Shown here: piece after piece, positions 3,864-32,975 of the stretch
Position numbering within the stretch: the stretch's first letter is position 1
Layout: each line of letters begins with the position of its first letter
DNA from: a virus
DNA: 38,110 nt
Reading direction: 5' to 3' (one strand)
Virus record (IMG/VR): IMGVR_UViG_3300021141_000027
Coordinates: 1 to 38,110 of that record
Program-made: the position numbers and the translations under genes
Notes under the pieces: generated by a model
What the model was told of the DNA's origin: nothing
Seen by the model: the letters and a program-made list of their open reading frames with translations, nothing else
Databases searched by the model: none

Positions 3864-4151
3864 ATGTACACCCTTCATTATTTCGATATCAATAACAACA
3901 ATATCTCCACTATCTCACCACAATTCCCCGACATTCAAACCCTGGTCAACTATATCAACCAACACCCCGAAATCGACGCGGTTGTTTTCCATCAAAACAA
4001 CTACAACCACCGCGACACACTCGTCGCCGCCCGAATTGCCGACGTTATCCTCAACGGAAAACCTCGCCGGAAATTCGTCAAACAAATGGCCGAATATATC
4101 GAATCTATCCCCGATCAAATCCAATGGAAACCAAAATACCCTAAAAACTAA
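3864..4151 (+). CDS. Small early protein, C-rich codons, paralogue of the 37259 gene (95 aa)
   Basis: ATG behind AAGGAGAAAAAAC. The N-terminus shares the pattern F-D-x-x-x-N-x-N-I ... P-x-[FY]-P-x-I with the 61-aa product at 37259, and both genes share the same leader. The coding strand is unusually rich in A and C and poor in G (codons such as CCC, ATC, AAC, GCC), unlike its neighbours. The C-terminal half is basic (GKPRRKFVKQMAEYIES). No recognised domain; probably a host-takeover or accessory early gene by position (inference). Confidence 0.75.
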   Translation: MYTLHYFDINNNNISTISPQFPDIQTLVNYINQHPEIDAVVFHQNNYNHRDTLVAARIADVILNGKPRRKFVKQMAEYIESIPDQIQWKPKYPKN

Positions 4152-4227
4152 TTTCATTCTTTTGAAAATAGTTGTGTACATATTATGCGTTATGTGCTAA
4201 TATGAATAATAAGCTAAGGAGATTGTC
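4151..4227 (+). repeat. Promoter-leader cassette, copy A
   Basis: Bases 4151-4180 match 37981-38010 at 29 of 30 positions, and the 22 bases before the start-codon spacer (4204-4225) are identical to 38034-38055 and to 4883-4904. The distance from -35 to start codon is also kept within one base. It contains the promoter at 4174 and the ribosome site CTAAGGAG. Confidence 0.85.
4174..4203 (+). promoter_or_regulatory. Early promoter for the 4228 gene
   Basis: GTGTAC (4174-4179), 18 bp, TAATAT (4198-4203) preceded by TGC (extended -10). AT-rich AAAATAGTT lies just upstream, as in most copies. Confidence 0.8.
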
Positions 4228-5174: not shown

Positions 5175-5201
5175 TTTAATGCGTGCATAGCTAAAATAGT
5201 T

Positions 5202-5231
5202 GTGTACATATTATGAAATATATGGTACATT
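5202..5231 (+). promoter_or_regulatory. Early promoter of the structured leader
   Basis: GTGTAC (5202-5207), 18 bp, TACATT (5226-5231) preceded by TGG. The expected start of transcription, 6-8 bp below the -10, coincides with base 5237, the first base of a 17-bp stem. Confidence 0.75.
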
Positions 5232-5236
5232 GGCTT

Positions 5237-5329
5237 ATACGATGGTGAAAGGCACGAATGGTCTTTCGTAAATTGGGTTGGGCTTCGGCTCTGTAAATTC
5301 CCTCAGTGGACCGCCTTCCACCATCGTAT
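5237..5329 (+). ncRNA. Riboswitch-like structured 5' leader RNA
   Basis: Bases 5237-5253 pair with 5313-5329 as a 17-bp helix with a single A.C mismatch. Inside are a hairpin ACGAA (5254-5258) / TTCGT (5265-5269) with loop TGGTCT, and a TTCG-tetraloop hairpin GGGC/GCTC (5280-5291). GGG (5275-5277) may also pair with CCC (5300-5302). The first loop can pair with GGACC (5308-5312), directly next to the closing helix, giving a pseudoknot. The 5346 gene starts 17 nt after the helix. A 9-codon ORF (ATG at 5242) lies in the structure. I compared it from memory with purine, SAM-I, THF, cobalamin, ZTP and phage glutamine RNAs and saw no match. Confidence 0.6.
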
Positions 5330-5345
5330 CTTTGTGGAGATTACT

Positions 5346-5750
5346 ATGACAATGCATCTTTTAGGTCCTGCTTACACCACCACTAATACGCGTGTACGAA
5401 AGACCAAGACTAGTGCCACGCAGTACCATAAGTACTATATTGATTGGCGTGATGACTGCAAGTTCAACAAGCGGCTTGGTACAGCGCCAAAGACTCTAGA
5501 CGAGTACATTGCGTATTGTCAGGGAAAGTACAAGCCAAAGCTCCGTGGCACACCGTTGCCAGAGTATAATGTATCCAACCACCGTGAACGCTATCCATCA
5601 CAGACCGACACTGGTGTCACATTTGCCAAGAAGCCAAACGTCTACACAGGCGATAAGTTGCTAGGTATTGCCACTATGCATAAGTCCAACATGGTTCCTG
5701 TCTTCAGTCAGGAGGATGCTGAAGAGATTGCTAAGATGCGCCGGGGCTAA
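5346..5750 (+). CDS. Conserved phage protein, unknown function (134 aa)
   Basis: The ATG at 5346 follows GTGGAGATTACT; an upstream in-frame GTG at 5334 falls inside that ribosome site and is rejected. From memory, the C-terminal sentence GIATMHKSNMVPVFSQEDAE and the SNHRERYPS motif recur in uncharacterised proteins of T4-like marine phages. The N-terminal part is basic (RKTKTSATQYHKYYIDW). No catalytic motif is obvious. It is the only gene directly under the structured leader at 5237-5329, so if that RNA is regulatory, this protein is its output (inference). Confidence 0.85.
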   Translation: MTMHLLGPAYTTTNTRVRKTKTSATQYHKYYIDWRDDCKFNKRLGTAPKTLDEYIAYCQGKYKPKLRGTPLPEYNVSNHRERYPSQTDTGVTFAKKPNVYTGDKLLGIATMHKSNMVPVFSQEDAEEIAKMRRG

Positions 5751-31859: not shown

Positions 31860-32975
31860 ATGGCTCGTATAGCTATCAAGATCAAGGCAAAACCAAAGAC
31901 CAAGTCACGTGCCGTCATCAAGTCTTTTGATGAGAAGCATTACGGTTCAGAGCCTATCGTTGTCACCGCCGACCCTGCAAAGTACGGCGATGCTCTGAAC
32001 TGGTACAACTACATGCATGATAATGATCAGGCACGTGAGTGGCTGCTCGAGTACATGAAGAATGCTGACTTCAAGCGTGAACAGATCGCTGCTGTCCGCC
32101 GTTGCCCCAAGTACAAAGTCATAACCACAATCGGTTGGCAGGCACGTATCATGATGAATGGTAACGTGCTTGCTGCCTCTTCAATGGCTTTCTTCAACGA
32201 ACGACTCAATGAACTGTACGTCATCGGTGGAGACATCAGGGAAGAAACTGCCAACGTTGCAGCCAAGCCGGTTGTCGACATCCAGGCACGGATCCGTGCA
32301 CGTACAAATACGTTGATCACGATGATTGAGGAGCAGCTTGATGGTGTCATGAATGGTGGCACCTTCGATATCTATAGCTTCATGCAGAAGCATGAGGTTA
32401 CTCCTCAGATCGCCGGTTACATCCGTGACTACTACCTTCCTATGAAGGAGGAAGCAGATCTTGATGACGAGCAGGTCAATGAAGCATATGGCAAGAAGCT
32501 CAAGTTCTGGCGTACCTTCTACTCTGCTCTTATTGCAGACTGTGACAAGTTCATAAATAATAGGAAGGCTGTCAAGCTTCGCAAGCCGCGTGAAAAGAAA
32601 GTCAAGTCGGCTGTTGATGTTGTCAAGGCTCTCAAGTACCAGAAGGAAGAACCTTCACTGCGGATTGTTTCAGTCCATCCGACTGAGGTTGTAGGATGTA
32701 ACCAACTATGGGTATACAACACAAAGTACAAGAAGCTGACCCAGTACATCTCGATGAGTCCTCAGGGTATTCAAGTGAAGGGAACGACTCTAATTGGTTG
32801 GGATACCGAATTGAGCGTATCGAAGTCTCTCAGGAAACCAGAGATTACAATCCCAGAACTCTTGAAGGTTGGCAAGGTGGCTATCAGGTCATTCATGCCA
32901 GAACTGAAGACGGCCGCTTCTGCACCGAACGGCCGGCTGAACGAACAAACCATTCTACTAAGGGTAATTAAGTGA
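31860..32975 (+). CDS. Conserved T4-like phage protein, unknown function (371 aa)
   Basis: Behind a family promoter and CTAAGGAATAACC, with optimised GC-rich codons, so it is probably strongly made. The N-terminus is Lys-rich (MARIAIKIKAKPKTKSRAVI). A helical middle (VDIQARIRARTNTLITMIEE, FDIYSFMQKHEVTPQIAGYI) precedes a basic linker (RKPREKKVKSAVDVVKALKY) and a beta C-terminus (LRIVSVHPTEVVGCNQLWVY). From memory, similar proteins exist in other T4-like phages. A DNA-binding role is possible from its charge but not shown. Confidence 0.85.
   Translation: MARIAIKIKAKPKTKSRAVIKSFDEKHYGSEPIVVTADPAKYGDALNWYNYMHDNDQAREWLLEYMKNADFKREQIAAVRRCPKYKVITTIGWQARIMMNGNVLAASSMAFFNERLNELYVIGGDIREETANVAAKPVVDIQARIRARTNTLITMIEEQLDGVMNGGTFDIYSFMQKHEVTPQIAGYIRDYYLPMKEEADLDDEQVNEAYGKKLKFWRTFYSALIADCDKFINNRKAVKLRKPREKKVKSAVDVVKALKYQKEEPSLRIVSVHPTEVVGCNQLWVYNTKYKKLTQYISMSPQGIQVKGTTLIGWDTELSVSKSLRKPEITIPELLKVGKVAIRSFMPELKTAASAPNGRLNEQTILLRVIK

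Follow-up and report, generated by a model that had tools for sequence, protein, structure and literature searches.

A phage-specific, structured and probably trans-acting RNA of T4-like phages

Results and discussion

The window, i.e. the complete stretch of 38,110 nt that was analysed, is an IMG/VR virus record of a T4-like phage whose UvsX is closest to those of T4-superfamily phages infecting Stenotrophomonas, Xanthomonas and Acidovorax. It contains a hairpin which, as overwhelming comparative support shows, corresponds to a genuine, evolutionarily conserved RNA. Our preferred reading, held with moderate confidence, is that of a phage-specific, single-copy gene for a structured noncoding RNA, which in this phage would be transcribed early from a start at the closing helix P1 and would act in trans, probably on a protein. 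What stays constant is a head, the clamp P1 and a 3' end at the foot of P1; what varies is the neighbour.

The element in the window

The following features, all on the + strand, make up the locus:

5193 to 5231, + strand: early promoter block (AAAATAGTTGTGTACATATTAT...), with the -35 box TGTACA at 5203-5208 and the -10 box TACATT at 5226-5231
5237 to 5253, + strand: P1, 5' strand and predicted start of the RNA; pairs with 5313-5329
5255 to 5258, + strand: CGAA, possible 5' arm of P2; complements TTCG at 5265-5268 in nearly all copies
5260 to 5264, + strand: GGTCT, 5' strand of the contact helix; 100% of the cells are paired with GGAYY
5265 to 5274, + strand: TTCG (possible 3' arm of P2) and joining strand TAAATT; near-invariant in 51 copies
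5275 to 5277, + strand: GGG, 5' strand of P3; pairs with 5300-5302, with double changes at three of three pairs
5280 to 5291, + strand: P4, a TTCG-capped hairpin, present in the long form only; its helix is replaced in relatives
5300 to 5302, + strand: CCC, 3' strand of P3; covariation in the alignment of 51 copies
5307 to 5312, + strand: TGGACC, including GGACC (5308-5312), the 3' strand of the contact helix; GTGGA is invariant in 51 copies, and the strand covaries with 5260-5264
5313 to 5329, + strand: P1, 3' strand, identified by the inverted repeat and by covariation
5330 to 5334, + strand: CTTTG, just past the foot of P1; a short U-run, with only three U in the window copy
5334 to 5750, + strand: neighbouring gene of 134 aa, phrog_27048 (Shine-Dalgarno sequence GTGGAG, ATG at 5346); not an obligate partner of the RNA

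The original prediction had described a 17-bp closing helix with one mismatch, an inner loop able to pair with GGACC next to this helix, and a TTCG-capped hairpin, and all three were confirmed: 16 of the 17 positions of the P1 arms are paired and GGTCT is complementary to GGACC, in both cases at exactly the predicted coordinates, and the capped hairpin reads GGGC-TTCG-GCTC. With 94%, the arms of P1 are among the strongest close inverted repeats of the window. That such a structure is not expected by chance, as had also been claimed, does not follow from fold energy alone: single-sequence folding gave -34.4 kcal/mol with a z value of -1.80, and 12 of 200 shuffles folded equally well. The claim does hold by the comparison of 51 copies described below. 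The invariant core TGGTCTTTCGTA (5259-5270) has a perfect 12-nt complement at 5395-5406 inside the 5346 gene; this complement was not found in those relatives that were examined by eye and is probably due to chance.

A family of 51 copies

Homologues of the 5346 gene in other viral contigs have the same element in some of their leaders, each time with a different P1 sequence. A search with the core pattern found 88 stretches which, combined with the homologue leaders, gave 51 distinct copies in IMG/VR; the element is present in dozens of T4-like phages. The common core, CGARUGRUCUUUCGUAWAU...RGUGGAYY, lies inside a long P1. In the alignment of the 51 copies (A1), 95.1% of the cells are standard pairs, compared with 73.6% in shuffles; 259 cells are double-changed as against 75 in shuffles, and the covariation score of 0.621 compares with 0.197 for shuffles and at most 0.174 for slid versions. 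The original prediction had named covarying substitutions in homologous leaders as its test, and these double changes are such substitutions. They occur at all 10 inner pairs of P1, whose sequences fall into 13 unrelated clusters among the 51 copies and whose length ranges from 8 to 19 bp. All 51 copies form the contact helix GRUCU/GGAYY, seven of them with a double change from G-C to A-U, and the P4 helix has been rebuilt in relatives as GAGC/GCUC, GGAC/GUCC, GGC/GCC, CCC/GGG and others.

The contact helix is nested inside P1, on which it stacks along a continuous 3' strand; it constitutes an H-type pseudoknot only if P2 (CGAA/UUCG) forms as well. The P2 arms are without any double change, and the third pair is mismatched in three copies. 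A loose pattern for other P2 sequences gave almost only chance matches among the matches listed. A tighter pattern for P2 variants found few, three of them with the mismatched third pair, which weakens the pseudoknot claim. In a second form of the element, subtype B (CGGUCUUUCGAAGAUU...AAGUGGAYYG), UUUCG is kept and the 5' arm of P2 is missing. Thus, of the pseudoknotted RNA that had been predicted, the contact helix is upheld by its covariation; P2 shows none, and its 5' arm is absent in subtype B. A pseudoknot is plausible.

Based on a weak match to the covariance model (E = 0.008) and on the same layout, we infer that subtype B is homologous to the element. It was seen at L353:1500-1560 and at the loci L363, L365, L366 and L369-L373, in each case immediately behind a stop codon and with CTATTTTT at its end. 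One copy, at 107539-107596, is present in the complete phage C48C1 (OQ984149.1, 156 kb), and a 66-kb record likewise contains a single copy.

Promoter, copy number and distribution

The -35 and -10 boxes of the 5193 promoter are separated by a spacer of 17 nt, and their positions place +1 at about 5237-5238, i.e. on P1, in agreement with the start at about 5237 that had been predicted. The stock consensus promoter scan gave this promoter no score, because its -35 box is TGTACA. Seven copies of the 22-bp promoter block were counted in the window, and none in 100 shuffles. Near-identical early promoter blocks (AAAATAGTTGTGTACA) begin on the + strand at 4165, 4844, 5193, 5749, 31790, 37450 and 37995; in relatives, this block family drives differing small genes, as if promoter cassettes were shuffled. 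The six other copies in the window are followed by ordinary short leaders, so that one promoter in seven carries the element; as the seven look much the same, nothing about the promoter is peculiar to the RNA. The distance between the -10 box and P1 is 4-5 nt in most of the freshwater relatives. A promoter of its own accompanies the element in the window group and in several other cases, and several further copies have none; outside the window group, the element is located 1-76 nt after an upstream stop codon, with or without a promoter.

Of 37 viral records of 15-259 kb searched with the covariance model, 34 contain exactly one copy each; since most of these records are fragments, single-copy status is demonstrated mainly for parts of genomes. 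The model gave no match in the remaining three, which are long and do contain homologues of the 5346 gene. When 84,980 bacterial and archaeal genomes were scanned with the core pattern, five matches were obtained, none of which has the 5' arm or the P1 of the element; a DNA similarity search of 50,697 phage records returned chance matches only, and the covariance model detected no significant copy in the cultured UvsX relatives DLP6, X1, ACP17, YB07, Cr30, S13, Melnitz, HTVC008M, S-RIM50 and S-H38. As the searches required the conserved core, diverged copies may have been missed. On this basis, the element is apparently phage-specific and confined to lytic T4-like phages.

The distribution bears on the idea that the element is a cis-acting 5' leader, in which the duplexed 5' end and the head would shield the mRNA of any gene from 5'-end-dependent decay or aid its translation. 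The position of P1 at the predicted +1 in the window group, the Shine-Dalgarno sequence directly after it and the interchangeable downstream genes are what such a leader would be expected to show. However, a generic stabiliser should recur, whereas one of seven early promoters of the window has the element and each record one copy; it would moreover require no invariant core, and several copies follow a stop codon without a promoter of their own. We therefore regard the leader function as unlikely.

The 3' end

A U-run of at least four nucleotides follows the foot of P1 in 34 of the 51 copies, compared with 4% of random windows; by eye, one is also seen in three more copies, in which P1 is bulged. 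A 3' stem followed by a U-run is the layout of a small RNA gene ended by a terminator, which in the window copy is weak: CUUUG contains three U, and the terminator scan made no call. With such a short run, transcription probably continues into the 5346 gene, of which the element would then also be the leader. Copies of the freshwater group have a short U-run with the Shine-Dalgarno sequence immediately after it, as in a leader. At locus L299, a tRNA-Asp gene lies 2 nt from the foot of P1, and at L303, L096 and L092 tRNA-Glu, tRNA-Trp or tRNA-Lys is found within about 19 nt, all without a U-run.

Two alternatives have to be weighed against these ends. A cis-acting RNA that modifies RNA polymerase for the read-through of terminators would suit an element which is placed just past early promoters and ahead of untranslated tRNA or tmRNA-like units. 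The putRNA of HK022 (PMC9378689) is a comparable case, being an early-leader phage RNA with a conserved fold and, like the element, no obvious protein partner. In contrast to the two adjacent stem-loops of put, however, P1 encloses the head, and no match to the put sequence was seen; moreover, one copy per genome despite many early units and a terminator-like U-run at the end of most copies make a put-like function improbable. The second alternative, an intrinsic terminator or attenuator of a specialised type, with a loop to which a regulator binds, is favoured by those same U-runs and by subtype B with its invariable position after a stop codon and its CTATTTTT end. Yet neither the invariant head nor the single-copy status is needed for termination, and the window copy with its three U and the tRNA-adjacent copies do not fit; we assign a low probability to this alternative.

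Neighbouring genes

Among the best 80 homologues of the 5346 gene, the element is directly upstream in 14, stands before another gene in 8 and is absent within the fetched flanks in 58. The loci L011-L013 have 99%-identical homologues of this gene, yet their element precedes another one. Other downstream genes encode a 58-aa membrane protein, a 72-aa protein, a phrog_11903 protein and, in further copies, products judged by eye from their sequence to be an RNA-ligase-like protein and a glycosyltransferase; some phages have a tRNA or a tmRNA-like RNA in this place. In the window itself, the phrog_11903 homologue (31860-32975) lies behind an early promoter that lacks the element.

Control of the 5346 gene, which had been suggested as a function, is not supported by these data: most homologues are without the element, and close relatives carry their one copy before other genes. 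The proposal of a ligand-sensing leader fares no better, and a ligand-binding riboswitch for the downstream gene is highly improbable, since the conserved head, the invariant joining nucleotides, the leader position and the lack of a known class, which would fit it, are outweighed by downstream genes that share neither a conserved member nor a pathway or metabolic theme and often are tRNAs, by a P1 long enough to be stable without a ligand, and by a Shine-Dalgarno sequence outside the element.

Proposed role

Single copy number, phage-only spread and free choice of neighbours speak for a trans-acting RNA gene. From a riboswitch, a generic stabiliser or a put-like element one would expect either a constant gene or repeated occurrence, and these are the less probable rivals. 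According to the model of an RNA gene, the transcript would start from the early promoter in this phage at the first nucleotides of P1. The RNA folds into a long P1, unconstrained in sequence, on which the conserved head is borne. The head comprises the contact helix, the joining strand UAWAUU, P3, an optional P4 and possibly P2, in which case an H-type pseudoknot would result. The 3' end would be located at the foot of P1, generated in most phages by the U-run, i.e. an intrinsic terminator, and elsewhere probably by a cut at the adjacent tRNA. Most likely, the head would bind a protein, either of the host or of the phage, and the RNA could for instance be a decoy or an inhibitor in early infection. 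In the window phage, read-through past the weak CTTTG would additionally make the element the 5' leader of the 5346 mRNA.

A more specific version, which we put forward only tentatively, is that of a new class of RNA effector exclusive to phages: each T4-like genome would provide one early structured RNA, the head of which would bind a conserved host protein and disable or redirect it, while P1 would be a mere clamp and could vary freely. As host targets we propose a defence nuclease or toxin, an RNase, or a factor of RNA polymerase or the ribosome. A noncoding RNA family that is absent from Rfam, covaries strongly and persists in one copy while its neighbours change points to an RNA with a dedicated effector role in early infection; phage genes of this kind are overlooked by protein-based annotation. 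The covariance model built from the 51 copies makes the RNA findable and testable, and with C48C1 a sequenced phage carrying a likely subtype is at hand.

Comparison with known RNAs

The original prediction had assigned the element to no ligand-binding class and had proposed a search of Rfam. In agreement with this assessment, none of five copies reached a gathering score in Rfam 15, and nothing credible appeared at E values up to 10. The element appears to be new relative to Rfam; a published catalogue of candidate structured viral RNAs may contain an unnamed entry for it. The covariance models of abiF, wcaG, manA and glnA gave no match at E up to 10 either. These RNAs (S-CREM1, PMC9964418) resemble the element in that they are small, conserved, found in T4-like aquatic phages and often located by tRNAs. 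A boxA antitermination signal was considered as well: UGGUCUUU at 5259-5266 resembles UGCUCUUU except for position 3. This position is G or A in all copies and is paired, which is why the likeness is a lead only.

The promoter early stem-loops (PeSLs) of T4-type phages are closer in layout. According to papers that cite the reports on them (Arbiol 2010; Comeau 2014), they share with the element an early promoter and a stem-loop between small genes, and they are likewise tied to gene shuffling. An early sigma-70-type promoter joined to a stem-loop is indeed present in the window group, 4-5 nt before P1. According to the same papers, however, PeSLs are many per genome, whereas the element was found in one copy in 34 records; unlike them, its stem bears a covarying, conserved head of several helices, and it also occurs beside tRNAs without a promoter.

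A further parallel is offered by Melnitz, a related marine T4-like phage (PMC9004378), where, as at loci of the element, a structured RNA is tied to a tmRNA after an early promoter. The Melnitz RNA beside the permuted tmRNA is a glutamine riboswitch, and Melnitz itself is without a copy of the element. The tmRNA neighbour and the Melnitz paper had made a glutamine riboswitch a candidate for the element too; it was rejected, since the element does not match glnA (RF01739).

Several RNA and protein genes near the element were noted in passing. At L140:3765-3858, and also at L090, L127, L152, L156 and L302, all from marine T4-like phages, an RNA resembling a tRNA, with an acceptor arm and a T arm, lies directly 3' of the element; its likeness to the permuted tmRNA RF04321 is weak (21 bits, below the cut-off), and ARAGORN made no call for it in the scanned loci, which did not include L302. 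In the phage fragment L092:1-14492, the element sits within an array of tRNA genes, of which these 14.5 kb contain 34. At L089, a replicative helicase gene at most 1.5 kb upstream of the element (3950-4011) appears, from its translations inspected by eye, to hold an intein, near which an HNH-like endonuclease reading frame was recognised, also by eye.
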